This document shows, in pieces, positions 2-23,016 of a stretch of DNA of 64,000 bases. This DNA comes from Paenarthrobacter aurescens. GTDB lineage: Bacteria; Actinomycetota; Actinomycetes; Actinomycetales; Micrococcaceae. Below the pieces are notes generated by a model. The model was not told the DNA's origin. It did no database searches and worked only from the letters and a program-made list of their open reading frames with translations. Every line of letters begins with the position of its first letter. Position 1 is the first letter of the stretch. The position numbers and the translations under genes are program-made. The stretch lies in assembly GCF_041549525.1 (NCBI RefSeq), contig NZ_CP157456.1:1426001-1490000 (forward strand). The letters run 5' to 3'.

Positions 2-3000
2 GTCAGCTATGGCTCCACCGTGCTTTCGGTCACCGATCCTGCCCGCGGCAAAGTCTGGGCTTTGTCCCCTTCCACCGTTAACGGCTTCGACGAAGAAGGA
101 ACCGAGCCTGTTCTGACCGGCTCGCCGGGCATGGTGTCGGCGGTGGGTTCTGATAACAGGATCTACACGGCGGATCCCGGAAAGGGCGAAATTACCGTCA
201 CCACGGTGGACCCGAACGGCGAACGGACCGACTCGCAGATCACCAAAGTGGACGAGCTCAAAGGTGCCGGTGATCTTCAAATAACGGTGGTGGGCGATAA
301 GCCCGTAGTCCTGGACGCCGCCTCAGGTAACCTTTTCCTGCCCGGTGGCCGCAAGCTGCAACTGGCCGATGCCCGCGAAGCCAAGCTCCAGCAGAGCAGC
401 GAAGAGAGCAGCTTCGTGGCCATTGCCACGCAGAAGGCCCTCCTGAAGCAGCCCCTTGATGGCTCCACCGCAGCAACGGTTAATGCCGACGGCGAAGGCG
501 TCCCCGCGGCGCCCGTCCAGGTCAGCAAGTGTGTCCACTCGGCCTGGTCCGGTGCCAACAAATATGTCCGCGACTGCGAAAACGACGCCGACGACAAGAA
601 GAACGACGTCCCCAAGGCCAGTGCCTCCCCAAGCTACGTTTTCCGTGTGAACCGGGACCTGGTGGTCCTTAACGACGTCAACTCCGGCAGCGTGTGGCTG
701 GTCAACCAGAACATGCAGCTGGTGAACAACTGGGACGATGTTGTTCCGCCCAAGAACCAGTCCGATGACCAGGACCAGGAGTCCGCGGACAACAACACCA
801 TCAACGTCCTCCCGGACCGCACCAAGCCCAACCGTCCGCCTGAGACCAAACCGGACGAGCACGGTGTCCGGCCCGGCCGGACCTCCATCCTGAGTGTCCT
901 GGACAACGATTCGGACCCCGACGGCGATGTCCTCACCGCTTCAGTGGGTGCCAATGGCCCCAAGATGGGTGCGCTGGAAAATATCTATGGAGGCTCGGCC
1001 TTCCAAATCAAGGTTCCGGCTGATGCCAAGCCGGGAACTGAAGTCTTTGACTACAACGCCGCCGATGGCCGTGATTTGTCCGCGGGCGGCAAGGTCACCC
1101 TTCGCGTAGTAGCTCCCGAGGAGAACAAGCCGCCGCTCTTCAAGCGTGGTGAGCCCACCACCATGCTGGTGGAGCAGGGCAAGTCCGTCAGCCAGAACAT
1201 TTTGACCGACTGGATGGATCCTGACGGCGATGACCTGGTCCTTCTGGACGCGAAGTCGGACAACGATCAGGACCAGGTGAAGGTTCGCCGCGATGGTCTG
1301 CTCACTTACCAGGATTCCGGTGCCGCACCGGGCAAGAAAAACGTCACCATCACCGTGTGGGACGGCCGCGCCACCACCACCGGACGCATCGTGGTCAATG
1401 TGCAACCGCCCGGTGCCCTCGCGCCCGTAGTCAACGCGGACCACGTTACTGCCGTGGTTGGCCAGGACCTGGTGATCGCACCGTTGAAGAATGATGTCGA
1501 TCCCAACGGTGGTGCCCTTCGCGTGGCTCACGTTGAGGCGGCTGGCCCGGCGGAGCTGGGTCCAGTGACCGACGGCGGTACCTTCACCTTCCGGAGCGCC
1601 ACTCCCGGCCCGATTTACCTCACTTACATCGCCAGCAACGGGCCCCAAAGCAGCCAGGGGCTGATCCGTGTGGACGTGGAATCGGGCAAGGATGCAGGGG
1701 CCCCGGTTGCCGTTCACGACGTTGCCCTGCTCCCTGTGGGCGGCAGCGTTCTGGTTGATCCGTTGGCCAATGACTCTGATCCCTCGGGTGGGGTGCTGGT
1801 CCTTCAATCCGTCACGGTGCAAGACGGCTCTTCGGCCTCGGTGAGCGTGATCGACCACAGTGTCCTTCGCGTCACGGACGTCCTTGGCGCCAAGGAACCT
1901 TTCGTCTTCAGCTACACCATGTCCAACGGCCGTGCCTCGGCCACCGGGACAGTGGGCGTCGTCCCGGTGCCGGCGCCCGCCGTCGTGGAGGCTCCCCAGC
2001 CCAAACCCGACGAAGTCAACGTGCGCGTGAACGACGTCGTGACCATTCCTGTCCTGGACAATGACACCCACCCGCAGGGTGAGGAACTGTCCGTTGACCC
2101 GGTGCTGGCACAGAGCATTCCGGAAGAGGACGGCAAGGCGTTCATTTCCGAGAAGACACTTCGCTTCATCGCAGGCCCCACGCCGAAAACCGTGCGGGCC
2201 ATCTACAACGCGGTTGATCCGCAGGGCCAGAAGAGCGCCGCAGCGGTCACCATCCATATCCTCCCGCTCGAGGGCACCCAGAATTCGCGTCCGCAGCCGC
2301 AAAACCTGACGGCCCGGGTAGTGGCCGGTGGCAGCGTCAGGATTCCGGTCCCGTTGGACGGCATAGACCCCGACGGCGACTCCGTGCAGCTCACCGGAAT
2401 CGACAGCACACCCACCATGGGTACCGCGACGGCGGGCAGCAGCTTCATCGATTTCGTTGCGGCCGGTGACGGCGCAGGTACGGACACGTTCCGGTACAAG
2501 GTGATTGACCGGCAGGGCGCGGTAAACACAGGAACGGTAACGGTAGGCGTAGCTCCACGTGGCGAGGATAACCAAAAGCCTGCTCCAGTGGATGACGAGG
2601 TGAAGGTCCGTCCGGGCCGTCAGATCGCAATTGATGCGACCGCGAACGACACCGACCCCGACGGCGACATCATCCGTATCCTCACAGACAGCATTGAAGC
2701 GGATGCCGGACTTGATGCCAAGGTCAGTCAGACCAGCGGGCGGATCCTGGTGACCGCTCCGGCAGCGGAGGGCACGGTGAATGTCCGTTACTCCGTGGCC
2801 GATGACCGCGATGCGGTGGGCCAAGCCAGTATCCGCGTGGTGGTCCAGAACGATCTGCCCTTGCAGGCGCCGATTGCCCGCGATGACCGCGTGACGTCGG
2901 CACAGACGCTGGGCAAGACGGCCGTGGACGTTCCTGTCCTGAAGAACGACGAGGATCCGGACGGCGTGGGGGAGAACCTCAAGGTCGCCACCGGTTTGGA

Positions 3001-5737
3001 CACCGCACGTCCCGGACCTGAAGGCAACGTCATTGTTGACCTCACCGAGCAGCCTCAACTGGTGCCGTACACGGTGGAGGACGTGGATGGACAGAAGTCC
3101 ACGGCCATCATCTGGGTGCCCGGAATTGGGCAGCAGCTTCCCACGCTCGCCAAGGACGAGGTGGTGGAACTCGTCTCAGGCCAGTCCGTGACGGTAAACC
3201 TCTCCGAATGGGTGAAGGTCCGCGAGGGACGCTCACCGCGGTTGACCCAGACTGACCGCATCAAGCTGATCGGAGCCGACGGCAGTGACCCCATAGCCAA
3301 TGGTGGCACTGCGTTGAAGTACACCGCCGGCGCGGAATACGTTGGTCCGGGTTCCATCAGCTTCGAAGTTACAGACGGAACGGGTCCGGATGACCCCAAT
3401 GGCCTGAAATCCACGCTGAGCATTCGCACCAAAGTGCTGCCCGATCCCAACAAGAACAACCCCCCGGTCCTCCTGGGCAGCGAGGTGGAAGTTCCCAAGG
3501 GTGACTCTGCAAGCCTGGACCTGGAAAAGCTGACGTCAGATCCGGACTCGGATGACGTACAGAACATGAGCTACGAGCTGGCAGGTGACGCCCAAGGCGG
3601 CTTCAAGGCGAACGTGGATGGCAAGACGCTCAAAGTCTCCGCGGACGATTCCGTGCAGATCGGGCAGTCGGGCACCGTCCAGGTGAAGGCCAAGGACCGG
3701 CGCGGACTTGAAGCCGTGGCAACCTACAAGCTGTCCTTGTCGGCCTCCAACAGGCCCAAACCTGTGGCCAACGACGATGCTGAGCCGGATGCCCAATCGG
3801 GGAAGCCAGTAACAGTCAACGTGCTGGCAAATGACTCCAATCCGTTCCCGGATACTGCGCTGAAGATCGTCTCGGCTGTGACCGAAACGGGCCAGGGAAC
3901 GGCTGATGTTGGGGGAGACAGTGTTACCGTCACCCCTGCAGGCGGTTTCACCGGAACCATGGTGGTGGCCTACACCGTGCAGGACAAGACCGGCGAGATT
4001 TCCCGGTATGCCACTGCCCGCATCCGTTTGACCGTCAAGGACAAGCCGGCCGCACCCACCACGCCTCTGGCTCAAAGCGTGGGGGACCAGACTGCGTTGC
4101 TGACGTGGAACGCGCCGCCGGACCGCGGCTCACCGATCACCAAGTACACCGTGTACGGGGAGAACGGCTTCACCCAGGACTGCCCCGCCAACACGTGTAC
4201 GTTGACCGGGTTGACCAACAACGTGAAGTACCACTTCGCCGTCACCGCAACCAACGCGATCGACGAGTCAGACCGCTCTCCGCTGTCCGCCGAGGTCCGT
4301 CCGGACGTCAAGCCGGACACTCCAGTGGCGCCGACGCTGAAGTTCGGTGACAAGCAGCTTTCCGTGGCGTGGGTTCCTCCTGCAAGCAAGGGCTCGCCCA
4401 TTAAGTCCTACGATCTTGAGATCTCGCCTGCTCCGGCAGGCCAGAACCCGCAGATCCAGAACCTCACGGGCAACAGCCATGTGTGGACCGGACTGACCAA
4501 CGGCGTGGCCTACAAGGTCCGTGTCCTGGCACGCAACGACGCTAAAGAACCGTCCGAGTGGAGCACTTACTCCGCCGCGGAGATTCCTGCAGGCGTGCCG
4601 GCTACTCCTGCGGCTCCTTCAGTTGCGGGTGCCGGATCCGTAGGTACGCAGAGCCAGCTGCAGGTCAGCTGGGCAGCGCCGAACAACAACGGTGACGCCG
4701 TCTCCGCCTACACGCTTACCACCTACATGGGCGGTGCCGTGGTGGCTACCCAGTCCGTGGCGGCTACCTCGCAAAATGTCACCGTGGCGAACTCCGAAGC
4801 GGATTACACGTTCACGGTCTCGGCTACCAACAAGGCCGGCGTCAGTGGTGTCAGCCAACAATCGGCTCCCATCCGGGCTGCGGGCAAGCCCGGGATGGTG
4901 GGTGCGCCCTCGGCTGCCCTGGTTGAGACCAACGCTGATGGCGGCAAAATCCAGGTGACGTTCAATCCCTTGACAGCTGCGGAGCGAAACGGAGCCAATG
5001 TCAACGAGATCAGCTACCGGTATGCTCTGACGTCCGGTGGCGGCAGCGGTGCGATTCCCTCCGGCGGAGCTGTTGTAGCGGCCGCGAACGGAACCGACAC
5101 CGCCGTAGTGGTGTGGGCAGTCTCCTCACGAAACCCTACGCCTGGTGACAGAAGCCCCGCATCAAACACTGTCAAACCCTATGGACTGGCAGCTGCGCCG
5201 GTGGTGACCGGTAGCAAGAGCAGCGGCGTCGGCGACAAGACGGTGTCCTGGACCTGGACCGCCCCCAGCGGCAACGGGCGCCCTGTGACGGGGTACCAGT
5301 ACAGCCTTGACGGCGGAGCATGGACAAACACGGATCAGAGGTCGCTCTCAAGAAGTGTGGGTTACAGCCAGACCGTTACGCTTCAGGTCCGTGCGATCAG
5401 TGGCGGCCAAGCTGGCCGGGTGGGCAGCGATACATCCCGCAGTGGAGCCGAACCGCCTCCGCCGCCACCGCCCAACCCGCCGGCGCCATCGCAGATCATT
5501 GCGCACAACAGCACGTGCCCCGGAAAGCCCGGTCAAACGGACTCGTACAACCCGAGCGGCCCCACGTGTGGAGTCGGCTGGGTAGAGCGGTCCTGGGGCT
5601 GGATTGATGTCACCTGCAGGCAGGACATCTACCGCAACGGGACGCCTTGGTACAAGCTCAGCGGCTCCCCGAAGGATGGCTGGTTCGTGAAGTCAACCAC
5701 CGTGGACGTGCGCAACGGCGTGCCACCGCCCTGCTGA
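2..5737 (+). CDS. giant Ig-like/fibronectin type III surface protein (5' end missing)
   Basis: The frame is open from the first bases of the window, so the true start and any signal peptide lie upstream; about 1,911 residues are visible. The first ~250 residues have repeated short beta-strand blocks ending in VW or IY pairs, which suggests a beta-propeller. Roughly ten Ig-like/cadherin-like modules follow, each with a variant of VLDNDSDPDGD (near nt 896, 1490, 1766, 2053, 2638, 2935, 3820), a likely Ca-binding turn. Fibronectin type III modules follow from about nt 4046 to 5450 (W-x-P-P...G-S-P-I-x-x-Y pattern), then a Pro-rich linker and a ~75-residue C-terminal domain with four Cys. No LPXTG or C-terminal membrane segment is seen. 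It is first in a co-directional block of MoxR, DUF58, kinase and FtsK-like genes. I infer a secreted or cell-wall adhesin or sensor; the ligand is unknown. Confidence 0.85.
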   Translation, partial: VSYGSTVLSVTDPARGKVWALSPSTVNGFDEEGTEPVLTGSPGMVSAVGSDNRIYTADPGKGEITVTTVDPNGERTDSQITKVDELKGAGDLQITVVGDKPVVLDAASGNLFLPGGRKLQLADAREAKLQQSSEESSFVAIATQKALLKQPLDGSTAATVNADGEGVPAAPVQVSKCVHSAWSGANKYVRDCENDADDKKNDVPKASASPSYVFRVNRDLVVLNDVNSGSVWLVNQNMQLVNNWDDVVPPKNQSDDQDQESADNNTINVLPDRTKPNRPPETKPDEHGVRPGRTSILSVLDNDSDPDGDVLTASVGANGPKMGALENIYGGSAFQIKVPADAKPGTEVFDYNAADGRDLSAGGKVTLRVVAPEENKPPLFKRGEPTTMLVEQGKSVSQNILTDWMDPDGDDLVLLDAKSDNDQDQVKVRRDGLLTYQDSGAAPGKKNVTITVWDGRATTTGRIVVNVQPPGALAPVVNADHVTAVVGQDLVIAPLKNDVDPNGGALRVAHVEAAGPAELGPVTDGGTFTFRSATPGPIYLTYIASNGPQSSQGLIRVDVESGKDAGAPVAVHDVALLPVGGSVLVDPLANDSDPSGGVLVLQSVTVQDGSSASVSVIDHSVLRVTDVLGAKEPFVFSYTMSNGRASATGTVGVVPVPAPAVVEAPQPKPDEVNVRVNDVVTIPVLDNDTHPQGEELSVDPVLAQSIPEEDGKAFISEKTLRFIAGPTPKTVRAIYNAVDPQGQKSAAAVTIHILPLEGTQNSRPQPQNLTARVVAGGSVRIPVPLDGIDPDGDSVQLTGIDSTPTMGTATAGSSFIDFVAAGDGAGTDTFRYKVIDRQGAVNTGTVTVGVAPRGEDNQKPAPVDDEVKVRPGRQIAIDATANDTDPDGDIIRILTDSIEADAGLDAKVSQTSGRILVTAPAAEGTVNVRYSVADDRDAVGQASIRVVVQNDLPLQAPIARDDRVTSAQTLGKTAVDVPVLKNDEDPDGVGENLKVATGLDTARPGPEGNVIVDLTEQPQLVPYTVEDVDGQKSTAIIWVPGIGQQLPTLAKDEVVELVSGQSVTVNLSEWVKVREGRSPRLTQTDRIKLIGADGSDPIANGGTALKYTAGAEYVGPGSISFEVTDGTGPDDPNGLKSTLSIRTKVLPDPNKNNPPVLLGSEVEVPKGDSASLDLEKLTSDPDSDDVQNMSYELAGDAQGGFKANVDGKTLKVSADDSVQIGQSGTVQVKAKDRRGLEAVATYKLSLSASNRPKPVANDDAEPDAQSGKPVTVNVLANDSNPFPDTALKIVSAVTETGQGTADVGGDSVTVTPAGGFTGTMVVAYTVQDKTGEISRYATARIRLTVKDKPAAPTTPLAQSVGDQTALLTWNAPPDRGSPITKYTVYGENGFTQDCPANTCTLTGLTNNVKYHFAVTATNAIDESDRSPLSAEVRPDVKPDTPVAPTLKFGDKQLSVAWVPPASKGSPIKSYDLEISPAPAGQNPQIQNLTGNSHVWTGLTNGVAYKVRVLARNDAKEPSEWSTYSAAEIPAGVPATPAAPSVAGAGSVGTQSQLQVSWAAPNNNGDAVSAYTLTTYMGGAVVATQSVAATSQNVTVANSEADYTFTVSATNKAGVSGVSQQSAPIRAAGKPGMVGAPSAALVETNADGGKIQVTFNPLTAAERNGANVNEISYRYALTSGGGSGAIPSGGAVVAAANGTDTAVVVWAVSSRNPTPGDRSPASNTVKPYGLAAAPVVTGSKSSGVGDKTVSWTWTAPSGNGRPVTGYQYSLDGGAWTNTDQRSLSRSVGYSQTVTLQVRAISGGQAGRVGSDTSRSGAEPPPPPPPNPPAPSQIIAHNSTCPGKPGQTDSYNPSGPTCGVGWVERSWGWIDVTCRQDIYRNGTPWYKLSGSPKDGWFVKSTTVDVRNGVPPPC

Positions 5738-5814
5738 CTCCTGGCCGGCCAACCAACCAGCTCAAGCAACAACTACAACCCAACACCTCCATACCCAAGG
5801 AACAGGATCTACCG

Positions 5815-6786
5815 ATGACCATGACAAACGAGCAGGCCGCGTGGTTTGCAGAAACGTTCGAGAAGCTCGTTGCCAACGTGGGCAAGGCCGTGTTGGGCAA
5901 GGAACACGTCATCCGGCTGACCTTCACCGCCATGATGGCCGAAGGTCACGTCTTGTTTGAAGACGCACCGGGCACGGGCAAGACCTCCCTTGCCCGCGCC
6001 TTGGCCGCGACGGTCCAGGGTTCGCACAACCGTATCCAGTTCACGCCTGACCTTCTGCCTTCTGACGTGACGGGTGTGACCATTTACGATCAGAAGACGC
6101 AGAAGTTCGAGTTCCACAAGGGCCCGGTGTTCAACAACATCGTCCTTGCTGACGAAATCAACCGTGCTTCCCCCAAGACGCAGTCCGCGCTGCTGGAGGT
6201 CATGGAGGAATCCCGTGTGACCGTGGACGGCACCACGTACGAGGCAGGCCGCCCGTTCATGGTTCTGGCTACCCAGAACCCCATTGAACAGGCCGGCACC
6301 TACCGTCTACCCGAGGCCCAGCTGGACCGCTTCCTCATCAAGACCTCCATCGGCTACCCGGACCACGCTTCCACCGTCCGGCTGCTGGGCGGGGCCAACT
6401 TGAAGGACCGCTCAAAGGACCTCACGCCGTTGATCACCACCCAGGCTGTGGCTGACATGGCGGACCTGGCAGCCACAACCCACGTGGATACTGCAGTGCT
6501 GGAGTACATTTCGCGCCTCTGCGAAGAGACCCGCAATGCCGGAGAAACCCGTCTTGGTGTTTCTGTTCGTGGCGCTCTTGCCATGGTCCGCGCTGCGAAG
6601 GTGTGGGCAGCCAGCCAGGGCAGGAACTTCGTTTTGCCCGATGACATCAAGGAGCTCGCTCCCGTGGTGTGGACGCACCGTTTGGTGATGGACCCTGAAG
6701 CTGAATTCTCCGGGGCAACCCCTGAGGTGGTCCTTGGCCGTGTCCTGGCCGACGTCGCTGCCCCGCAGCAACGCGCCAGCGCCTAA
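5815..6786 (+). CDS. MoxR-family AAA+ ATPase
   Basis: 323 residues, the normal size for MoxR. Walker A APGTGKTS lies near residues 50-57, Walker B with LADEINRASPKTQ near 110, sensor 1 as LATQNP, and the family signature NPIEQAGTYRLPEAQLDRF follows it. MoxR ATPases act as chaperones that activate or insert cofactors in partner proteins, usually encoded with DUF58 and VWA genes. The frame is open further upstream, but the ATG at 5815 is preceded by AAGGAACAGG at a proper distance and begins the conserved part, so I chose it. It lies 77 bases after the giant Ig/Fn3 gene and 48 bases before the DUF58 gene, and is probably co-transcribed. The client is unknown; the neighbouring DUF58 and transglutaminase-fold proteins are the obvious candidates. 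Confidence 0.95.
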   Translation: MTMTNEQAAWFAETFEKLVANVGKAVLGKEHVIRLTFTAMMAEGHVLFEDAPGTGKTSLARALAATVQGSHNRIQFTPDLLPSDVTGVTIYDQKTQKFEFHKGPVFNNIVLADEINRASPKTQSALLEVMEESRVTVDGTTYEAGRPFMVLATQNPIEQAGTYRLPEAQLDRFLIKTSIGYPDHASTVRLLGGANLKDRSKDLTPLITTQAVADMADLAATTHVDTAVLEYISRLCEETRNAGETRLGVSVRGALAMVRAAKVWAASQGRNFVLPDDIKELAPVVWTHRLVMDPEAEFSGATPEVVLGRVLADVAAPQQRASA

Positions 6787-6834
6787 GCACCCCCCAAGCA
6801 CTCTCCGAACCCCAGCTCGAACAAAGGTCCCCAT

Positions 6835-8259
6835 ATGTCCTCCAGCACACCCCTGAACAGGGCTGCTGACTCGCTCAAGCGCGCGAAGTCCGCTCTTGGC
6901 GGCAAAATACGGTCCCTGCGTGGCTCCGCGAATGACCCGCGCGGTTCCGGGAACGATTCAGGGCGCCGTCCCGGCCAGGCACGCAAAGTGGGGAAGCCCG
7001 GCAAGCTCCACCCCGCCGCGGTATGGGCCGAAGCTGCAGGTACGGCGGGTGATTTCCTCTCCCCGGCGTGGACCAAGGTCCGGGACGTGTGGCTGAGGTA
7101 TGTCTGGCCGGTCCTCGCTGTGGTGAGCCTGTTGGGCTGGGTTGTGTTGGCTGCGGCAATCGGGCTCTGGTGGGCAGGGCAGGCGTGGGGCTGGCAGGAA
7201 GCCAAGTCCGCTGCGATGGTGGCGTTCCTGCTGTTCCTCCTGGCCATCGGCTTCATTGTGGGACGCTCGGCGTATGGTGTGGTCCTGGACCTTGCCCGTA
7301 CACGCGTGGCAGTAGGAGATGACGCAGTGGGCAGCATTGCTGTGTCCAACGTTTCCACGAGGCCTTTGTTGCCTGCTGCTTTGGAGCTCCCCGTGGGTTC
7401 CAATACTGCTGTGTTCCATTTGCCCCGTATGAAGCCGGCGCAGGTTCACGAGGACCTTTTCACCATTCCCACGGCCCGGCGTGCAGTGATTGTGGTGGGT
7501 CCGGTCCGCTCTGTGCGCGCCGACCCCCTCCACTTGCTGCGTCGTCGCGTCATGTGGACCGATCCGGTGGATCTGTTCGTACATCCCCGCACCGTTTCCT
7601 TGGGCAGCTCCGCGGCCGGCTTTATCCGTGACCTTGAGGGCATGCCCACCACGGAACTCTCCAGTGCGGATGTGTCCTTCCACGCCTTGCGCGATTACGT
7701 CCCCGGCGATGATCGGCGCCATATCCATTGGAAGACCACGGCCCGCACCAATAAGCTCATGGTCCGCCAGTTCGAGGAAACCCGACGCGCGCACCTTGCC
7801 ATCTCCTTGTCCATCAACACTGATGAGTACGAGTCCGAGGCGGAGTTCGAAATGGCCATCTCGGTGGCTGCCTCCATTGGCCGTCAGGCCATCAGTGAAC
7901 AGCGGGACCTGGACGTGCTGACCCAGAAGGGGCCGCTCCGCTGCGAAACGGGCCGAAACCTGCTGGACGATATGACCAGGGTTGTGGGGGCACCCATGCG
8001 GAAAACCGCCGTCGACCTCGCACGGAACCTGTCAGACGCCGTCCCGAATGCCTCCGTGGTGTTCTTCGTCGTAGGCAGCCACGTGACGGCAACCCAGCTG
8101 CGCACCTGCGCTGCCTCCGTTCCTCCCGGCGTGCGGAGCCTGGCAGTGCGGGTCCAACCCGGTGCGGCGCCGTCGAGAGCCAACATCGCGGACCTGACGG
8201 TCCTCACGGTGGGCGACCTTGACGATCTCGCCATTGTTCTTCGAAAGGCGGCAGCATGA
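6835..8259 (+). CDS. DUF58 domain-containing membrane protein
   Basis: 474 residues. A basic, Ser/Gly-rich cytoplasmic N-terminus of ~80 residues is followed by two hydrophobic segments (about 85-115 and 123-143) and then the DUF58 core, including the hallmark DYVPGDDRRHIHWKTTART near residues 287-305. The C-terminal part has a VWA-like fold in this family. DUF58 proteins are regularly encoded next to MoxR ATPases and are thought to be their partners in envelope assembly or stress. The stop overlaps the start of the next gene by ATGA, so translation is coupled to the TgpA-like protein. The biochemical function is not known for the family. Confidence 0.93.
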   Translation: MSSSTPLNRAADSLKRAKSALGGKIRSLRGSANDPRGSGNDSGRRPGQARKVGKPGKLHPAAVWAEAAGTAGDFLSPAWTKVRDVWLRYVWPVLAVVSLLGWVVLAAAIGLWWAGQAWGWQEAKSAAMVAFLLFLLAIGFIVGRSAYGVVLDLARTRVAVGDDAVGSIAVSNVSTRPLLPAALELPVGSNTAVFHLPRMKPAQVHEDLFTIPTARRAVIVVGPVRSVRADPLHLLRRRVMWTDPVDLFVHPRTVSLGSSAAGFIRDLEGMPTTELSSADVSFHALRDYVPGDDRRHIHWKTTARTNKLMVRQFEETRRAHLAISLSINTDEYESEAEFEMAISVAASIGRQAISEQRDLDVLTQKGPLRCETGRNLLDDMTRVVGAPMRKTAVDLARNLSDAVPNASVVFFVVGSHVTATQLRTCAASVPPGVRSLAVRVQPGAAPSRANIADLTVLTVGDLDDLAIVLRKAAA

Positions 8260-12384: not shown

Positions 12385-13307
12385 ACTCACAGCCTGCCAC
12401 GCCCGCCGACGCCGAAGCGGGACCCGCTGCGGGGGGATCGGCTTTTCGACTCAGCTACGGGTACGGGACGGACCGCGGGTTGCGGCGCGAACTGAACGAA
12501 GACTCGTTCATCGCCTCAGACCCGGTTTTCGCTGTTGCTGACGGCATGGGCGGGCACGAGGCAGGGGAGATCGCAAGCGGCATGTGCGTACGGGCCCTGG
12601 GTAGTGCCCCTGAACTGGCCACAGGCGTCCGCACGGCAACAGCGGCAGATCTTCAGTCGTGCCTGTTGAAGGCCGATGCCGCTATCCGCGATGCCACGGG
12701 CGCCCGCGCAGGGACCACGCTCTCCGGAGTTGTTGTGGTGGAACAAATGGGCTTGCCGTACTGGCTGGTCATGAATATCGGCGATTCCAGGACGTACCGT
12801 CTTAGCCAAGGCGAGTTCGCGCAGGTCAGCGTGGATCATTCCGAGGTGCAGGAACTGGTGGATTCCGGGGATATCACCGCCGAGCAGGCAACGGTCCACC
12901 CCCGCCGCCACGTGGTGACCCGTGCCCTGGGTACCGGAGATGAGACCGAGGCCGATTTCTGGCTGCTTCCCATCCAGGAAGGCGACCGGATCATGATCTG
13001 CTCGGATGGTCTCAACGGTGAACTGGGCGATGACCACATGTTCCGCATCCTGAGCACGGTTGCCCATCCGCAGGATGCCGTGGATGCACTGATTCAGGCT
13101 GCTTTGCGGAGCGGCGGCAGGGACAACGTCACGGTCATTGTGGTGGACGCCAAGAACGTATTGAACGACGCCGGCATCGCCATCACTGCGCCGCGACCCG
13201 AGGCTGCTTCCGAGGTTGAGGAAGACACCCTTCCCCGTGCCTGGGTGAACGGCACCGACGAGGTTTCCGGGGCTGATCGGGAGGAAGGCGCCGATGGCAA
13301 GCAGTAA
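12381..13307 (+). CDS. PP2C-family Ser/Thr protein phosphatase
   Basis: 308 residues. All main PP2C metal-binding and catalytic motifs are visible: RRELNEDSF near residue 36, VADGMGGHEAGE near 53, NIGDSRTYRL, MICSDGLNGEL and GGRDNVTVIVV. It is a soluble cytoplasmic enzyme with a ~40-residue acidic tail. The start ATG overlaps the preceding stop (ATGA), and its own 3' end overlaps the next gene by 14 bases. Being in the same transcription unit as the receptor kinase, it is very likely the counter-enzyme that removes phosphate from the kinase and its FHA-bound targets, as PstP does for PknB; that pairing is inferred from context. Confidence 0.95.
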   Translation: MNSQPATPADAEAGPAAGGSAFRLSYGYGTDRGLRRELNEDSFIASDPVFAVADGMGGHEAGEIASGMCVRALGSAPELATGVRTATAADLQSCLLKADAAIRDATGARAGTTLSGVVVVEQMGLPYWLVMNIGDSRTYRLSQGEFAQVSVDHSEVQELVDSGDITAEQATVHPRRHVVTRALGTGDETEADFWLLPIQEGDRIMICSDGLNGELGDDHMFRILSTVAHPQDAVDALIQAALRSGGRDNVTVIVVDAKNVLNDAGIAITAPRPEAASEVEEDTLPRAWVNGTDEVSGADREEGADGKQ

Positions 13308-15336: not shown

Positions 15337-17117
15337 GTTCCAAGAGGCCCCCCGCGCCGCCTCCACCCATCCCTGGGTTCAAGTACATCAGCCTGCTCGG
15401 TTCCGGTGGTTTCTCGGATGTTTACCTTTATGAGCAGGACCGCCCGCGCCGAAAAGTAGCGGTCAAGGTGCTGTTGTCCGATCTGAAGACCGAAGGGGCT
15501 CGCCGCCGTTTCGAGTCCGAAGCGAACCTCATGGCCCAGTTGTCGTCGCATCCTTACATCGTGACGATCTTCGAAGCCGAGATCACCGAAAACGGCCACT
15601 CGTACCTGGCCATGGAGTACTGCTCCAGGCCAAGCTTGGACGTCCGTTACCGTCGCCAGCGGTTCAGCGTGGACGAGGTCCTGGCGGTCGGCATTCAGGT
15701 GGCTTCCGCCGTCGAAACCGCCCACCGGGCCGGTATTGTGCACCGGGACATCAAGCCCGCCAATATCCTGGTTACCGACTACAACCGGCCAGCCCTGACG
15801 GACTTCGGTATTTCCGGCACCATAGGCGCTGACACCGAGGATGATGCCGGAATGTCCATCCCGTGGTCTCCGCCGGAGCAGTTCCGCGGTGGCGCCGTGG
15901 ACGGTGTTCCCGTGGATATCTGGGCCCTGGGCGCAACGCTGTACACGCTTCTGGCTGGTCGCTCACCGTTTGTCCTTCCGGGACAGGACAACTCGCAGCG
16001 GGAGCTGATCTCCCGCATCACCAACTCGCCGCTGCCCAGGCTTGGCCGTGCAGATGTTCCTGAGTCTTTGGAATTGGTCCTGGCCACGTCCATGGCGAAA
16101 TCGCCGGAATCCCGCTATTCGTCGGCCCACGCCTTCGCGTTGGCGTTGCAGAGGATCCAGGCCGAACTGAACCTGTCCGTCACGCCCTTCGAGGTGCTCG
16201 AAGAACCCGGGCACGGTGACGATCAGCATCCGGACGACAACTTCGAGGAAACCCGGGTCCGGAGCATCGCCTCGATCGATCCCGACGCTTCTGGAACAGC
16301 CACTACGGGCTCGGCACCCACGTTCCCGGCGCGTACATTTCCTTCCACGGTCCCGGGCGGTACTCAACCTCCAGCCCAGCGGCCGTCACAGCAACCCACT
16401 GAGCTGCCAGCTCAGCCCGGTAAACCTCCGCAGCCGGTCCAGTCGCAGGCCGGGCCCGCCGCCCCGCCTCAGTTCCATGCCCCGGCAGGTCCTGCCTACA
16501 CGGCTCCTGGAGCATACACGGCGTCTGGACCATACACGGTTCCTGGCGAGCCTGACACGGCGGAGTCAACGGTCCTTCGCGGCTGGCAGCCCTCGCAGCC
16601 ACAGGACGATCTAGGGGCAACAGTCAGCCGATCTGCCACAGGCACCTCAGCCGTGGCTCAGGATGACGTTCCGCCGGCGGATCACAGCAAGCGAAATCTG
16701 TGGCTTTCAGTATCGGGCGCGGCCGTACTTGTTGTGGCAATCGTGATTGGTGTGGTGTTGGGCGCCCAAGCACAACCCAAGGTGGCGCCGACGGAGACTT
16801 CCAGCAAACCGCCAGCCGACGCTCTGAGCGACGGCAGCGTTCCGGAAGTGGAAGGCCTCTTCGCGGAGCGTCACCCAGGAGACCCCGATCTTGTTGATTT
16901 CCATTGGAAGAACCCGCAGCCGCAGCCGGGCGATACCTACAAGTACCGGTATAAGTCAGCGAAACTGGACGGCGAGTACAAAAACACCATTGACGGTGAA
17001 ACGACCACTACCGTGTGGGGCTTGGAATTGCCCGTTTGCGTGCAGGTCATCATTGTGCGCGCCGACGGCTCCGCGTCGCCCGGCGGGCCGGATTCCATCG
17101 CCTGCTTGGAAAAATAG
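15333..17117 (+). CDS. receptor-type Ser/Thr protein kinase with Fn3-like ectodomain
   Basis: 594 residues, starting at a TTG that overlaps the previous stop (TTGA). The kinase domain (about 15-280) is complete: Gly loop LGSGGFSDVY, VAVKVL with K45, HRDIKPANIL with D139, DFG at 157-159 and the PPEQ activation-segment end. A ~170-residue Pro/Thr-rich juxtamembrane stretch precedes one transmembrane helix (about 455-478). The ~115-residue extracellular part has the W-x-N-P...Y-x-Y-x-x-x pattern of a single Fn3-like module and two Cys. There are no PASTA repeats, so this is not a PknB/StkP-type peptidoglycan sensor. The ectodomain may contact the giant Fn3 protein encoded in the same block; that is a guess. 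Confidence 0.93.
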   Translation: MSSKRPPAPPPPIPGFKYISLLGSGGFSDVYLYEQDRPRRKVAVKVLLSDLKTEGARRRFESEANLMAQLSSHPYIVTIFEAEITENGHSYLAMEYCSRPSLDVRYRRQRFSVDEVLAVGIQVASAVETAHRAGIVHRDIKPANILVTDYNRPALTDFGISGTIGADTEDDAGMSIPWSPPEQFRGGAVDGVPVDIWALGATLYTLLAGRSPFVLPGQDNSQRELISRITNSPLPRLGRADVPESLELVLATSMAKSPESRYSSAHAFALALQRIQAELNLSVTPFEVLEEPGHGDDQHPDDNFEETRVRSIASIDPDASGTATTGSAPTFPARTFPSTVPGGTQPPAQRPSQQPTELPAQPGKPPQPVQSQAGPAAPPQFHAPAGPAYTAPGAYTASGPYTVPGEPDTAESTVLRGWQPSQPQDDLGATVSRSATGTSAVAQDDVPPADHSKRNLWLSVSGAAVLVVAIVIGVVLGAQAQPKVAPTETSSKPPADALSDGSVPEVEGLFAERHPGDPDLVDFHWKNPQPQPGDTYKYRYKSAKLDGEYKNTIDGETTTTVWGLELPVCVQVIIVRADGSASPGGPDSIACLEK

Positions 17118-17162
17118 CCGGCACATGAGACATACTTACCGCCGACCTAGGAGGCACAGATC

Positions 17163-17867
17163 ATGGGGGATCTAGCAATAGATTTCTGTGGTGAATGGTA
17201 CGAACCATCCGACGAGGACATCTTCGATATTGGGCGCGAAGGTGACTTGGAAGTCGATGACAACCCGTACCTCCACCGCCGCTTCCTGCAAATAGCCCGT
17301 TACGACGGCATGTGGTGGCTCAGTAACGTGGGCAGCATGCTCTCCGCCACCGTCGCTGATGGTTCCGGCGGGATGCAGGCGTGGCTGGCGCCCGGGGCGA
17401 GGATCCCGTTGGTGTTCAGCCATACCAACGTGATTTTCACGGCCGGACCCACCACCTATGAGTTCGCTGTTCATTTGAAGACGCCCTCCTTCCGGCACGA
17501 GGCACGTGATGAGGACCAGGCGGGGGACACCACCATAGGCCCGGTGGTCTTCACGGATTCTCAAAAGGCGCTCATTGTGGCCTTGGCCGAGCCCATGCTG
17601 CGGCGTGACGGCACCGGCTTCAGCGCCATCCCGTCATCTGCCGAAGCAGCCAAGCGGCTGGGCTGGGCCTTGACCCGTTTCAACCGGAAACTGGATAACG
17701 TCTGCGACAAACTGGACCGCGTGGGTGTCGTGGGCCTCCGCGGCGGCGTGGGCAAACTTGCCACCAACCGCCGGGCTCGCCTGGTGGAACACGCCGTAAC
17801 GTCGCATTTGGTGACCCCGGCGGACCTGCATCTTCTTGAAAAAATGAGTGGAGTCGACGAAGGATGA
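17163..17867 (+). CDS. degenerate FHA-like protein with helical C-terminal domain
   Basis: 234 residues. The N-terminal ~110 residues follow the FHA pattern (DIGREGDLEVDD, then LHRRFLQI, then WWLSNVGS), but the usual S-x-x-H and N-G residues are altered. The C-terminal ~110 residues (from about residue 123) are helical and resemble a winged-helix or other DNA/protein-binding module: SSAEAAKRLGW is followed by NRKLDNVCDKL. I do not know a named family. It has its own strong Shine-Dalgarno (TAGGAGG near 17149) after a 45-base gap from the kinase gene, and its stop overlaps the start of the FtsK-like gene (ATGA), so it is translated together with the motor protein. Confidence 0.8.
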   Translation: MGDLAIDFCGEWYEPSDEDIFDIGREGDLEVDDNPYLHRRFLQIARYDGMWWLSNVGSMLSATVADGSGGMQAWLAPGARIPLVFSHTNVIFTAGPTTYEFAVHLKTPSFRHEARDEDQAGDTTIGPVVFTDSQKALIVALAEPMLRRDGTGFSAIPSSAEAAKRLGWALTRFNRKLDNVCDKLDRVGVVGLRGGVGKLATNRRARLVEHAVTSHLVTPADLHLLEKMSGVDEG

Positions 17868-20800
17868 AGTTCCGCCTGACCTTGCGGCGTGACCCTGCCG
17901 AGGCAAAGGACCTCGCCGTAACGGTGGATGGTCGAGCCACCGTGGCTGACATTGCTACGGAGCTGTGGGCAGCTGACCCCGCACGAAAAGGGACCGAACC
18001 GCCGTCGAACCTGTCCATCAGCGTGGACGAAGCCTTCGTTGGGGGAGGTTTGTCCGGGCACGTCCTGCGGCCCACGGACAACCTGCTGGAATCCGGGCTC
18101 AGGCCAGGGTCCAAAGTCTCCCTCGCCCAAGTCAGCGAGCAGTTCGCGTCCAACGGCCACGCGGCCGGAACCAACAGGGGACCGGCAGCGGCGACCCTGC
18201 GCGTGATGTCAGGGCCCGACGTCGGACGCGAATTTTCGCTGCCGTTCGGCACCAGCTACATCGGCCGGGACCGGGACGCCGACATCCGGTTATCGGACCC
18301 GCTGACCTCCAAGCGCCACGCCCGCATCACGGTGGGCGAAACCGTGGAGATCGTGGATACGAACTCTGCCAACGGCCTGCTCATGGATGGTCTGCCGGTA
18401 ACCCGGGCAACCCTTGAGTCCTCCGACACCGTGACATTGGGCGATACTTCCGTGGGCGTGGTGGCTTTGTCCCGAAACCACGGTGGCGGTCCGTCGTCAC
18501 CGCTGGTGGACTTCAACCGTTCGCCGCGGGTGCTGCCCAGGTTTGAGTCGCCCAAGCGGGTACCCCCGGCCGGTCCCAAGCGCCCGGAACACCAGCCTTT
18601 CCCGTACATCATGCTGATTGCGCCGCTCCTGATGGGCGGCGTGCTCTTCGCGTTCACGCAGAACCTGCTGTCCGTGATTTTCATGGCCATGATGCCGTTG
18701 TTCATTGTGGGGCACTATGTGGACCACAAGATGCAGAGCAAACGGCAAGCCAAGGAAGGCCACAAGCAGTTCAAAGCCGCCATGCTGGCCTTCCGGGAAG
18801 ACATTGATAAGCAGCAGAACATTGAGCGCGCTGTCAGGCTCCAGGAAGCGCCATCGGTGAGCGATACCGTTGACGCCATTTACAAACTTGGGCCACTGCT
18901 CTGGACCCACAGGCCGGAGCACCAGCACTTCCTGGGGGTTCGCTTTGGCCTCGGCTCGGCGCCGTCGCGCATCCAGTTCGAGGAACCCGGTGCCAACGAA
19001 ACCGAACCGCAGTACATGCGTGAAATTCAGGAATGCCTCTCCCAGGTCCGCGTCATTGAAGGCGTGCCTGTAGTCTCGCAGCTGCGCACTTCCGGCTCAT
19101 TCGGCGTGGCCGGTGACCGCAGCGTGGTGGACGATGTTGCCCGCGGCATGGTCCTGCAACTGGTGGGGCTTCATTCCCCGGCCGAAGTTGTCCTCACAGC
19201 ACTGACATCTGCACGTTCGCGTGAGCGCTGGGACTGGCTGCAATGGCTCCCGCACGTCGGTTCAGGCCACAGCCCCATCTCAGGTGATCATTTGGCTGCC
19301 GGTCCCGGTGCCGGTGCCGCCTTGTTGTCCCGGCTCGAAAGCCTCGTGGAAGAGCGTGAATCCATGGCAAAGGAGCCCGGACCGCAGCCGCGGCCCGGAC
19401 TCAAGAACGAACACGAGGAAATTCCCGGTCCCGTGGTTCCGGCCGTCCTGCTGATCGTTGAGGACGATGCCCCCGTGGACCGCGGGCGGCTGACGCGTTT
19501 GGTGGAACGTGGACCCGACTACGGGGTGCACATCATGTGGGTGGCCGCCAATGTGCAGTCCCTTCCGGCGGCGTGCCGTGACTTCCTCTCCGTTGATGGT
19601 GACCACGGAACCACCACGGGCCAGGTCCGTTTGGGCCGCCACACCTACCCCGTGAGCTGCGAAAGCCTCGATGCGGAGCTTGCCACCCAGTTGGCCCGGA
19701 TGATGTCGCCGCTGGTGGACGTTGGAAACCCGCTCGACGACGATTCCGACCTCCCGCGCGCCGTTTCCTACGCCACGTTGATCGGCAAGGAACTGATGGA
19801 CAACCCCCAGGCTGTGGCGGAACGCTGGCAGGAGAACAACTCCGTCCACGCCACAGCCGTGCCCAACCGGAAGGACAACGGCAGCCTCCGCGCGCTGGTT
19901 GGTTCCAAAGGCGTGGAGCCGTTTTACCTCGACCTCAAGAACGAAGGTCCGCACGCGTTGGTGGGCGGAACCACCGGTGCCGGCAAGTCCGAGTTCCTGC
20001 AATCCTGGGTGATGGGCATGGCCGCGGCGTACAGCCCGGACCGTGTGAGCTTCCTGTTCGTGGACTACAAGGGCGGTGCCGCCTTTGCCGACTGCCTGCA
20101 CCTGCCGCACACCGTTGGACTGGTAACGGACTTGTCTCCGCACCTGGTGCGCCGGGCCCTGACCTCACTCCGCGCCGAGCTTCACTACCGTGAGCGTCTC
20201 CTGAACCGGAAGAAAGCCAAGGACCTGCTGGCGTTGCAGCGCGAAGCCGATCCTGAGGCGCCTCCCTACCTCATCATCATCGTTGACGAATTCGCGGCGC
20301 TCGCCACGGAAGTTCCCGAGTTCGTCGATGGTGTGGTGGATGTCGCTGCCCGTGGCCGGTCCTTGGGACTGCACTTGATTCTGGCCACGCAACGGCCCGC
20401 CGGTGTCATCAAGGACAACCTGCGCGCCAACACCAACCTTCGTGTCGCCTTGCGCATGGCCGACGAAGTGGATGCCACGGACATTTTGGGCGTTCCCACT
20501 GCGGCGTACTTTGATCCGTCCATTCCGGGCCGTGGTGCTGCGAAGACAGGCCCGGGCCGTATCCAGGGTTTCCAAACCGGCTATGCCGGAGGTTGGACCA
20601 CCGAAAAGCCTCAGCGTCCCAGGATCGACATCGTAGAGATGGCCTTCGGATCCGGCCCCACGTGGGAACCGCCATTGGTCTCGCAGGTGGAAGAAGAACC
20701 CGCCGGTCCCAACGACATTGCAAGGATGACCGGAAACATCATTAGGGCAGCTGACATTCTGTCCATTGAACCTCCCCGGAAGCCTTGGCTGAACGAGCTC

Positions 20801-22318
20801 GCCACCACCTACGACTTCTCAAAGCTGCCCAATCCGCGGACCGATGAGCGGCTCCTGCTGGGCGTGGCGGACGATCCCGCGCACCAGGACCAGCCCACCG
20901 TGTTCTACGAGCCGGACAAGGACGGCAATATGGCCGTTTACGGCACGGGTGGATCCGGTAAGTCGGCGGCCCTGCGCGGCATTGCCATCGCAGCGGCCGT
21001 GACTCCGCGTGGCGGTCCCGTGCACGTCTACGGCGTCGACTGTGGTTCCTCAGGACTGAAAATGCTTGACGGCTTGCCTCACGTTGGTGAAATCATCAAC
21101 GGGGACGACGTCGAGCGTGTTGGCCGGTTGCTTCGCTGGCTCAAGGAAGTGGCGGATGACCGCGCTGCACGGTTTGCCGAGGTCCGGGCCTCCACCATTG
21201 TGGAGTACCGCCAGCTCGCCAACAGGCCGGATGAAAAGCGCATCTTCATCCTGGTGGACGGTATGTCCTCCTTCCGTGAATCCTACGAGTACAGCAACTT
21301 GTCTGCGTTGTGGGACATCTTCCTGACACTTGCCACTGACGGGCGGCCCCTGGGCATCCATCTGGTTGTCAGCGGTGACCGAACCAACTCCGTTCCTGCC
21401 TCGCTCCTTGCGTCCATTCAAAAGCGGCTGGTCCTGCGTTTGAGTTCCGAAGACGACTACATGACCCTTGATGTTCCCAAGGATGTCCTCAACGCCGCAT
21501 CGCCGCCGGGGCGTGGCCTGCTGGACGGGCTCGAAGTTCAACTCGCCGTACTGGGAGGAAACTCGAACCTTGCCCTCCAAGCCCGTGAAGTGGTCAAGCT
21601 CAGCCAGGCGATGCTGCGCCAAGGCCTCGAACAGGCACCCCAAATTCAGCGGCTGCCGGAGCTCGTGGACCTGGACATCCTGCCCACCGGTGCCCCGGAC
21701 AACCCCGTCATTGGTGTCGACGACGAGACACTGGGTTCGGCGGCCATCGCGGCCAAGGGATCCCTCCTGCTGGCAGGTCCTCCGGGTGCCGGACGCACCG
21801 TGGCACTTGTCACCCTGGCCTACGCCTTGCGGCGCTCCAACCCGCGCACTGACCTGATCTACATTGGTTCCCGGCGATCGGCCGTGGCATCGCTGAACAT
21901 CTGGAGCAGGTCATTGGTGGGACCTGACGAAGTCTCGGACGTGGTGGATGACCTGATCGACAAAGCCGCGGATAACCCCGGCACCATGGCGATCTTCATC
22001 GAGGGCCTGACAGAGTTCACGGATACCTTGGCGGAATCCGGGGTAGGACGTCTGGTGACGGCGGCCATCAAGGCTGACCAGTGGGTGGTTGGTGAGTCCG
22101 AGACCTCCACCTGGTCCCAGGCATGGTCACTTGCCCAGCCGTTCAAATCCGGACGCCGCGGACTCCTGCTCAACCCCGGGGACGTTGAAGGTGACACCCT
22201 CCTCAACACCTCCCTGGGCCGGATCAGCAAGGACTTCATCCCGGGCCGCGGGTACATTGTGGGACGTGGAAAGGTACGCAAGCTCCAAATCGCCATGCCG
22301 CCTGAAAACCGAAGCTAG
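17864..22318 (+). CDS. EssC/EccC-like FtsK-SpoIIIE ATPase with ubiquitin-like and FHA domains
   Basis: 1,484 residues. Residues 1-95 look like a ubiquitin-like YukD/EsaB-type domain. An FHA domain follows (about 115-205: YIGRDRDADIRL, SKRHARI, DTNSANGL), then two transmembrane helices (about 245-290) and three FtsK/SpoIIIE-type ATPase modules. Module 1 has Walker A GGTTGAGKSE (K708) and Walker B VDEF (D808, E809). Module 2 has GTGGSGKS (K1033) but VDG instead of DE (1132-1133). Module 3 has GPPGAGRT with Arg 1311 where Lys is expected. The order FHA-TM-TM-ATPases matches the type VII secretion motor EssC. I found no WXG100 substrate, EccB, EccD or mycosin gene in the window, so the exported cargo is unknown. 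Confidence 0.9.
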   Translation: MKFRLTLRRDPAEAKDLAVTVDGRATVADIATELWAADPARKGTEPPSNLSISVDEAFVGGGLSGHVLRPTDNLLESGLRPGSKVSLAQVSEQFASNGHAAGTNRGPAAATLRVMSGPDVGREFSLPFGTSYIGRDRDADIRLSDPLTSKRHARITVGETVEIVDTNSANGLLMDGLPVTRATLESSDTVTLGDTSVGVVALSRNHGGGPSSPLVDFNRSPRVLPRFESPKRVPPAGPKRPEHQPFPYIMLIAPLLMGGVLFAFTQNLLSVIFMAMMPLFIVGHYVDHKMQSKRQAKEGHKQFKAAMLAFREDIDKQQNIERAVRLQEAPSVSDTVDAIYKLGPLLWTHRPEHQHFLGVRFGLGSAPSRIQFEEPGANETEPQYMREIQECLSQVRVIEGVPVVSQLRTSGSFGVAGDRSVVDDVARGMVLQLVGLHSPAEVVLTALTSARSRERWDWLQWLPHVGSGHSPISGDHLAAGPGAGAALLSRLESLVEERESMAKEPGPQPRPGLKNEHEEIPGPVVPAVLLIVEDDAPVDRGRLTRLVERGPDYGVHIMWVAANVQSLPAACRDFLSVDGDHGTTTGQVRLGRHTYPVSCESLDAELATQLARMMSPLVDVGNPLDDDSDLPRAVSYATLIGKELMDNPQAVAERWQENNSVHATAVPNRKDNGSLRALVGSKGVEPFYLDLKNEGPHALVGGTTGAGKSEFLQSWVMGMAAAYSPDRVSFLFVDYKGGAAFADCLHLPHTVGLVTDLSPHLVRRALTSLRAELHYRERLLNRKKAKDLLALQREADPEAPPYLIIIVDEFAALATEVPEFVDGVVDVAARGRSLGLHLILATQRPAGVIKDNLRANTNLRVALRMADEVDATDILGVPTAAYFDPSIPGRGAAKTGPGRIQGFQTGYAGGWTTEKPQRPRIDIVEMAFGSGPTWEPPLVSQVEEEPAGPNDIARMTGNIIRAADILSIEPPRKPWLNELATTYDFSKLPNPRTDERLLLGVADDPAHQDQPTVFYEPDKDGNMAVYGTGGSGKSAALRGIAIAAAVTPRGGPVHVYGVDCGSSGLKMLDGLPHVGEIINGDDVERVGRLLRWLKEVADDRAARFAEVRASTIVEYRQLANRPDEKRIFILVDGMSSFRESYEYSNLSALWDIFLTLATDGRPLGIHLVVSGDRTNSVPASLLASIQKRLVLRLSSEDDYMTLDVPKDVLNAASPPGRGLLDGLEVQLAVLGGNSNLALQAREVVKLSQAMLRQGLEQAPQIQRLPELVDLDILPTGAPDNPVIGVDDETLGSAAIAAKGSLLLAGPPGAGRTVALVTLAYALRRSNPRTDLIYIGSRRSAVASLNIWSRSLVGPDEVSDVVDDLIDKAADNPGTMAIFIEGLTEFTDTLAESGVGRLVTAAIKADQWVVGESETSTWSQAWSLAQPFKSGRRGLLLNPGDVEGDTLLNTSLGRISKDFIPGRGYIVGRGKVRKLQIAMPPENRS

Positions 22319-22353
22319 GATGCTCTGAAAAACGTAGCTAGGAGGCTACATAC

Positions 22354-23016
22354 ATGCGTCAATCCCTCGTTCCAGCTGCGCTGCTCGCTGTTGGATTGCT
22401 GCTGGCACCCGTTACAGCCGCCCACGCCGGGCCTTGCGATGGTCGCTTCTCCTGCGCTCCCACTGAGGGAACCGAGGATCCGACGCCCACGCAGCCCGGG
22501 CTGGCTCCGGAGGAGGGCAATAAGCCCTTGCCCAATCCGGAGCCGGGCAGGGACCGGGAAACGCAGCAAGCGCCGGTACCTCCCATCCAAGCGCCTCCTG
22601 TGCAGGCACCTGCTCTGCCGGCTCCCGACGTTCAGCCCCAACAGCCGCCAGTCCAGGTTCCACAGCAACCCGCGGTGCCCCAGACGGTCACCGTGGCACC
22701 CCAGGTGCCCAATCCGGCGTCGAACTCTGCCAGCCCCACCGCAAGCGAGGGGGAAGCCTCGGCGTCGGCCACTGCGTCCCCAACGGCGTCGGCTTCACCC
22801 CCCGTAAGTCACAGCTCAAGTAGCGCAAGTCCTTCCTCCAATTGGAATGTGCCGGTGGACAAGGACAAGGAAACCCAAGCGGCCACCATGACCTCCAGCT
22901 CATTCACAGGTCCGAACATGCTGGGTCTTTTCGGGCTTCTGGGCGCTGTTCTGGTGGTGGGTCTGGGAGGGCTGGCCTTTGCGCTGTGGAGCAAGAACAG
23001 GCTCTCGTCGCACTAA
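22354..23016 (+). CDS. secreted Pro-rich protein with C-terminal membrane anchor
   Basis: 220 residues. A signal peptide (about 1-26, cleavage after AHA) is followed by ~150 residues rich in Pro, Gln, Ala and Ser with almost no predicted fold. A transmembrane helix (about 187-212) and a short basic tail WSKNRLSSH complete it. The architecture is like that of a sortase substrate, but no LPXTG motif precedes the helix. The Shine-Dalgarno AGGAGG (22340-22345) lies within a short inverted repeat GTAGC-TAGGAG-GCTAC (22334-22349), which could partly mask it. It is 35 bases after the FtsK-like gene and is probably the last member of that block. Function unknown; a wall-spanning stalk is one possibility. 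Confidence 0.8.
   Translation: MRQSLVPAALLAVGLLLAPVTAAHAGPCDGRFSCAPTEGTEDPTPTQPGLAPEEGNKPLPNPEPGRDRETQQAPVPPIQAPPVQAPALPAPDVQPQQPPVQVPQQPAVPQTVTVAPQVPNPASNSASPTASEGEASASATASPTASASPPVSHSSSSASPSSNWNVPVDKDKETQAATMTSSSFTGPNMLGLFGLLGAVLVVGLGGLAFALWSKNRLSSH

Follow-up and report, generated by a model that had tools for sequence, protein, structure and literature searches.

An FHA-bearing EssC-like motor and its gene block in Paenarthrobacter aurescens: a probable variant of type VII secretion

The window is the whole stretch of DNA analysed here, 64,000 nucleotides long, and corresponds to positions 1,426,001-1,490,000 of a single-contig genome of 4.36 Mb. Its left part holds an EssC-like motor gene amid genes for a kinase, a phosphatase, FHA proteins and envelope proteins. 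A first-pass annotation found no WXG100 gene in view and took this as the mark of a system apart from type VII secretion. The locus thus raises two questions: what kind of machine the block encodes, and whether that machine truly lacks WXG100 partners.

The gene block and its motor

ORF and domain analysis of the window confirmed a co-directional block of eleven genes, all on the + strand and in the order previously annotated, with overlaps at six of the ten gene junctions. The genes are as follows.

2..5737, +, FN3b, giant Ig/cadherin/Fn3 surface protein (domain search, hydropathy scan)
5815..6786, +, MoxR-type AAA+ ATPase (AAA_3, 210.9 bits; ORF open from 5647, probable start at 5815)
6835..8259, +, DUF58 protein with two hydrophobic segments (domain search)
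8256..10769, +, TgpA-like membrane protein with a transglutaminase core (domain search, hydropathy)
10759..12384, +, FHA1: zinc ribbon, RDD membrane domain and FHA (domain search; probable start)
12381..13307, +, PP2C Ser/Thr phosphatase (domain search; probable start)
13294..15336, +, FHA2: extended region of low complexity, cysteines resembling a zinc ribbon (by eye) and C-terminal FHA (domain search, hydropathy scan)
15333..17117, +, receptor Ser/Thr kinase, catalytic motifs intact
17163..17867, +, FHA-fold protein whose C-terminal part is helical and, by eye, winged-helix-like
17864..22318, +, type VII motor: N-terminal domain, FHA, two hydrophobic helices and FtsK/SpoIIIE ATPase domains
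22354..23016, +, Pro-rich protein with a hydrophobic segment near each terminus (putative signal peptide and membrane anchor)

FN3b starts 371 bases left of the window, is 2035 aa long and has one hydrophobic segment, at its N-terminus. A paralogue, FN3a, lies directly upstream in tandem (genome 1,419,170-1,425,379; L005 11170-17379; 2069 aa) and shares 53% identity with FN3b over 2035 aligned columns. The hydropathy scan found no C-terminal membrane helix in either protein. The receptor kinase has one hydrophobic segment (residues 458-476) and a short outside domain, and in the FHA-fold protein the serine of the FHA SxxH motif is replaced. NCBIfam at E 0.01 gave no match for TgpA, FHA2, the FHA-fold protein and the Pro-rich protein. 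The Pro-rich protein is variable, and in some relatives a WXG100 gene comes next, then ligA. In the window, ligA and an inositol monophosphatase gene follow the block; both were found at 69 of the 80 loci from named relatives. ARAGORN called a tRNA-Ala inside the kinase gene (window 16347-16441, - strand), which is probably a false call.

Comparison with profile models and solved chains shows the predicted motor to be a member of the EssC/EccC ATPase superfamily. It scored 538.6 bits against the EssC model, 342.6 against EccCa and 287.0 against EccCb, scores that lie below the curated cut-offs of these subfamily models, and its best solved relatives by sequence were the 4nh0, YukB and EccC5 chains. 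Key residues of Walker A and B in the first ATPase domain were conserved in 27-28 of 28 motor orthologues, as were the residues of the FHA site (G-R, S..H, N-G), which we take to be the phosphothreonine signature. The FtsK/SpoIIIE domain and the database names of the motor would also suit an FtsK-like pump for DNA or another substrate rather than a protein exporter. This is very improbable: the motor has an FHA domain and two hydrophobic helices as in EssC as well as WXG100 neighbours, and the FtsK model gave 52.1 bits against the 538.6 bits of EssC, a difference on which the DNA pump was rejected.

In the predicted structure, motor residues 1-90 (pLDDT about 65-86 there, pTM 0.40) follow what we take to be the strand order of ubiquitin. 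A Pfam scan with the YukD model gave a weak match in one of 24 motor N-termini (0.013), and a weak match at 0.055 was obtained with one motor N-terminus. Profile comparison of the N-terminus gave E 0.29 with the EccD-like domain of the window's genome, and a further profile comparison gave E 0.006. Fold searches with the motor returned match lists filled by the FHA domain, not by the N-terminal domain. Three alignments were used: A1, which leaves out L018, L034, L041, L045 and L046 and covers 25 of 30 motor loci; A3, with 24 loci (the A1 set minus L029); and A2, with 18 sequences, the identical copy from G373 being omitted. The motor of G113 (35% identity) falls outside the 28 orthologues, although the G113 kinase was one of the 20 kinase ORFs used for the motif check.

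Conservation and rearrangement of the block

Eighty named loci of Arthrobacter, Paenarthrobacter and Pseudarthrobacter were compared with 10 kb of flank; these are close relatives, and some loci are cut by contig ends. The motor was present in 80, the kinase and the FHA-fold protein in 79 each, FHA1 and FHA2 in 78 each, PP2C in 77, TgpA in 76, DUF58 in 71 and the Pro-rich gene in 40. In a class-wide sample, 28 of 393 genomes, the window's included, had a full-length motor orthologue (42-100% identity). FN3, MoxR, DUF58 and TgpA lie upstream of the motor in 18 of the other 27 loci, counting G157, whose FN3 gene is short (about 420 codons). The class sample had a score gap between motor orthologues and other motors, from 1164.6 to 658.8 bits. 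Since an order-wide sample contained intermediate scores (about 1013-1113, 896-898, 821-832 and 626-633), the border of the motor family is not sharp. The first-pass annotation had staked its reading on conservation of the gene set in homologous loci. The set is conserved across the orthologous loci, which supports, as a reading, an envelope/export machine that is linked to phosphorylation and has an EssC-like motor.

The order of the parts varies. The submodule PP2C-FHA2-kinase-FHA-fold protein stands before the motor in ten loci, upstream of FN3 in four (G302, G079, G234 and G157), downstream in G366 and inverted in G039. The kinase directly precedes FN3-MoxR-DUF58-TgpA in G298, G218 and G360, and FN3-MoxR-DUF58 in G311, where the retrieved sequence stops at DUF58; in G311, FN3, MoxR and DUF58 are downstream of the motor. 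No PP2C, FHA2 or FHA-fold protein was found nearby in these four genomes.

Such mobility of the submodule is what would be expected of two independent neighbouring systems, a WXG100-exporting motor with its FHA and kinase genes and an unrelated MoxR-DUF58-TgpA-Fn3 envelope module. In line with this, TgpA is unlinked to the motor in seven of the 28 motor genomes (on other contigs in three of the seven, where distance is undefined), and among the matches listed a TgpA relative lies within 25 kb of a divergent FHA-type motor in only 4 of 122 places. However, all 28 motor genomes have a TgpA relative, 21 of them within 17.4 kb of the motor, and the window's gene overlaps also speak against separate systems. 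We regard this explanation as distinctly improbable; membership of the MoxR-DUF58-TgpA module in the exporter is nevertheless the weakest link of the reading that we prefer, a single type VII variant.

WXG100-type genes and ESX parts

Clustering of the ORFs in orthologous loci showed that, in relatives, small WXG100-type genes follow directly on the motor. Of 27 loci, 18 have a gene of family f0 or f2 that starts no more than 1 kb past the motor end, and 21 have one within 9.5 kb downstream. The six loci without a WXG100-type gene in those 9.5 kb are those of three same-genus genomes and of G183, G218 and G360; that of G183 ends at a contig end, with only 886 bases downstream of the motor. An f0 example scored 58.7 bits against Pfam WXG100, above the cut-off of 27.3, and an f2 example 26.1, just below it. 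Other motor neighbours in relatives include small CFP-10-like and long LXG-like proteins, both named by eye and with no Pfam family above cut-off, and an LpqN-like protein, which scored 50.6 bits against a cut-off of 22.4. A WXG100-less system, as first proposed, was rejected on the 21 loci. The search for WXG100 and LXG genes suggested at that stage was thus positive in homologous loci (LXG-like by eye) and negative beside the window's own motor, where the family is unlinked. By these comparisons, a motor with no adjacent WXG100 gene is a trait of the window's lineage.

In a Micrococcaceae sample of 149 genomes, the WXG100 family was matched in all 30 with a close motor orthologue (the G790 motor, which is spread over two frames, was included) and in one of the other 119 (G850). 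The motor and WXG100 searches used the same settings, and their genome handles agree among the matches listed. In 15 of the 30 motor genomes, 130-239 bp separate the WXG100 gene from the motor. No match was found in five Micrococcaceae genomes with a motor relative of 38-50% identity (G848, G793, G847, G794 and G822). Of the 393 class-sample genomes, 30 matched the window-type WXG100 query. Ten were among the 28 with a motor orthologue and 20 among the 365 others; many motor-orthologue genomes that the query missed carry f0 instead. For 19 of the 30 genomes, a match fell within 5.8 kb of a motor on the list (orthologous in 5, divergent in 14). Since the matches in the 20 others are mostly near divergent FHA motors, the WXG100 tie is not exclusive to this motor and is a property of FHA-type motors more widely. 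These co-occurrence counts are not phylogenetically independent, and a Fisher value for the Micrococcaceae sample, which takes no account of common descent, was not read as a probability; together with gene adjacency, the genetic link between motor and WXG100 is well supported by comparison.

Among the 80 named loci, ten in Arthrobacter or Pseudarthrobacter have, downstream of the motor, a WXG100-type gene that is 49-67% identical to an orphan gene of the window's genome; one partial and two weak matches were found in addition. Of the genes sought, the next after these ten is ligA in nine and an EamA-like gene in one. Arthrobacter sp. SPG23 (L130) has two WXG100 copies: one adjoins the motor and the EamA-like gene, all on a single contig, and the other adjoins ligA at a contig start. 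G536 is arranged likewise, and its two copies (L198 10435-10806 and L199 1-372) share 372 bases at 99.7% identity with swapped flanks. The swapped flanks may reflect recombination or an assembly misjoin; the motor adjoins WXG100 in the SPG23-type genome whether or not the contigs were misjoined. In G274 (L078 1009-3845), the WXG100 gene is separated from ligA by genes for a TPR-AAA ATPase, laid out like EccA, and for a TPR protein that has hydrophobic segments.

The orphan itself is an f2-like gene at 4,237,901-4,238,179, 2.8 Mb from the motor. It has the W-x-G motif and scores under both cut-offs (Pfam 25.4 against 27.3, NCBIfam 28.2 against 44.85). Its site, with P-type-ATPase and EamA-like neighbours (names assigned by eye), is the same in all four genus genomes examined, the window's included. 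Four longer proteins, at about 135.9 kb, 3,618 kb, 3,785 kb and 4,031 kb, share its WXG100 head, with head scores of 16.8 and 17.6 bits or none. One carries a calpain-type protease domain (65.3 bits) and another DUF6973 (105.2 bits), and these two are candidate exported effectors; the others have a hydrophobic tail and a glycine-rich tail, respectively. The protein next to the glycine-tailed one is, by eye, similar to the LpqN-like f9 family, but it has no Pfam match. The calpain- and DUF6973-bearing proteins (L192 4894-5979 and L193 5122-6165) each adjoin a small lipoprotein-looking gene. A lone WXG100 gene (55.7 bits) is also found at genome 1,004,392-1,004,682 (L006 8393-8683), beside a two-component-like system (by eye). 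All nine same-genus genomes listed in the Micrococcaceae sample have the WXG100 family, in 3-6 places each.

Parts of the classical ESX machine were scarce. EccB matched in two of the 28 motor genomes and in none of 14 control genomes, so only these two show that the search works; YukD/EccD was above cut-off in five of the 28, and never within the block. In genome searches, the same-genus genomes G373, G258 and G002 gave no match to EccB or YukD. The window's genome gave no EccB match and has a YukD/EccD-like gene and an FtsK-type, presumably EccC-like, gene at 954-960 kb. The ESX-like locus around them (946-960 kb, L007) also holds small helical-looking proteins and a weak WXG100 match. Most motor genomes thus appear to have no classical ESX machine to borrow from. 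Because EccB was not found in 26 of the 28, the machine is unlikely to borrow ESX parts, and dependence on them was rejected; the first-pass observation that the block has no EccB holds.

The unlinked WXG100 gene in the window's own genome counts against the type VII reading, and the ESX-like locus could carry the orphan substrates there instead. It also favours another explanation, an adhesion and envelope-signalling operon like bifidobacterial PFNA, in which the motor assembles the giant Fn3 protein and WXG100 adjacency is an ancestral trait, unused in this lineage. The PFNA cluster (kinase, fn3, AAA, DUF58, transglutaminase, PP2C, FHA) is, in the texts cited below, described without a motor, and TgpA relatives occur in 34 of the 365 class-sample genomes without a motor orthologue. 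On the other side, the first ATPase domain and the FHA site of the motor have intact motifs, and the nine same-genus genomes have all retained the WXG100 family, although three of them gave no match to EccB or YukD. We consider this explanation unlikely.

Proposed mechanism and described relatives

The block is probably a type VII secretion variant, in which an FHA-bearing motor would be gated by the receptor kinase and PP2C and the giant Ig/Fn3 proteins would form the outer arm. Secretion, phospho-gating and the role of MoxR-DUF58-TgpA are parts that we infer. The receptor kinase would sense an outside signal and phosphorylate threonines on itself or on partners, and PP2C would reverse this. 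The FHA domains of the motor, FHA1 and FHA2 may then dock on phosphothreonine, so that the motor complex assembles or opens in the membrane. The motor would export the small WXG100 protein and the longer WXG100-headed proteins, which are scattered in the window's genome and probably antibacterial or envelope-active. MoxR, DUF58 and TgpA, in the roles usual for such proteins, may mature or stabilise the giant Ig/Fn3 proteins, and the FHA-helical protein may connect phosphorylation state with transcription. The giant proteins would span or decorate the wall as conduit, spacer or adhesin, a role similar to that suggested for TsdI of T7SSd by its authors (PMC11217815).

Among described subtypes, the closest is T7SSd, known from Olsenella and Bifidobacterium (Garrett et al., 2024; PMC11217815), a likeness by gene kinds and published description rather than by sequence alignment. 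As described there, it likewise has an FHA-bearing EssC-like ATPase with a conserved phosphothreonine signature, a membrane Ser/Thr kinase, a giant Ig-like envelope protein and WXG100. All these kinds are present over our orthologous loci, with WXG100 unlinked in the window's genome and displaced in this lineage. In contrast to T7SSd as described, the block also has MoxR, DUF58, TgpA, PP2C and three further FHA proteins. In its two giant proteins the hydropathy scan found no C-terminal membrane helix such as that of TsdI, and its motor N-terminus is predicted to have a ubiquitin-like strand order, whereas that description reports no ubiquitin-like protein for T7SSd. T7SSb (EssC/YukB) and T7SSa (EccC/ESX) share the FtsK-type ATPase and WXG100, and T7SSb also the FHA domain; the relatives' LXG-like proteins, named by eye, are a further likeness. 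The machine differs from T7SSa in the lack of EccB noted above, and from T7SSb in that its kinase has intact motifs, whereas T7SSb has the pseudokinase EssB. Within the block, EssA, EssB and EsaA gave no Pfam match.

The nearest described operon is PFNA of bifidobacteria (PMC8430577, PMC6803598), with kinase, fn3, AAA, DUF58, transglutaminase, PP2C and FHA genes. By gene kinds only, its order pkb2-fn3-aaa-duf58-tgm recurs kinase-first in G298, G218 and G360 (to TgpA) and G311 (to DUF58); in the window the kinase comes later. The occurrence of a PFNA-like kinase-fn3-MoxR-DUF58 order beside the motor in these four relatives suggests that PFNA may belong to the same machinery. Both papers interpret PFNA as host-immune signalling, their main texts do not contain the words FtsK or secretion, and one promotes PFNA as a source of anti-inflammatory protein (PMC8430577). 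Among the matches listed, with most subscription journals outside the scope, no title or abstract opening linked type VII secretion to MoxR, DUF58 or PFNA. PMC5819568 and PMC8191103 contain both DUF58 and type VII secretion. A predicted type VII system was reported as enriched in B. longum strains from younger subjects (PMC5758520), in a text without the words FtsK and fibronectin. More speculatively, and with the odds rather against it, T7SSd and PFNA might be halves of one widespread actinobacterial type VII subtype. An envelope- or contact-sensing kinase would gate an FHA motor with an integral ubiquitin-like domain, MoxR-DUF58-TgpA would build the Ig/Fn3 conduit, and WXG100-headed effectors, encoded at dispersed chromosomal sites, would be delivered to neighbours. 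PFNA would then serve secretion or delivery and not act as an immune receptor.

If the type VII reading is true, common soil actinobacteria have a phospho-gated, ESX-independent type VII subtype. It would suggest what MoxR-DUF58-TgpA-Fn3 operons, PFNA included, may be for, and would single out a few candidate exported proteins for study in tractable, non-pathogenic bacteria. It would also illustrate how a cargo gene drifting from its exporter can leave a system looking cargo-less.
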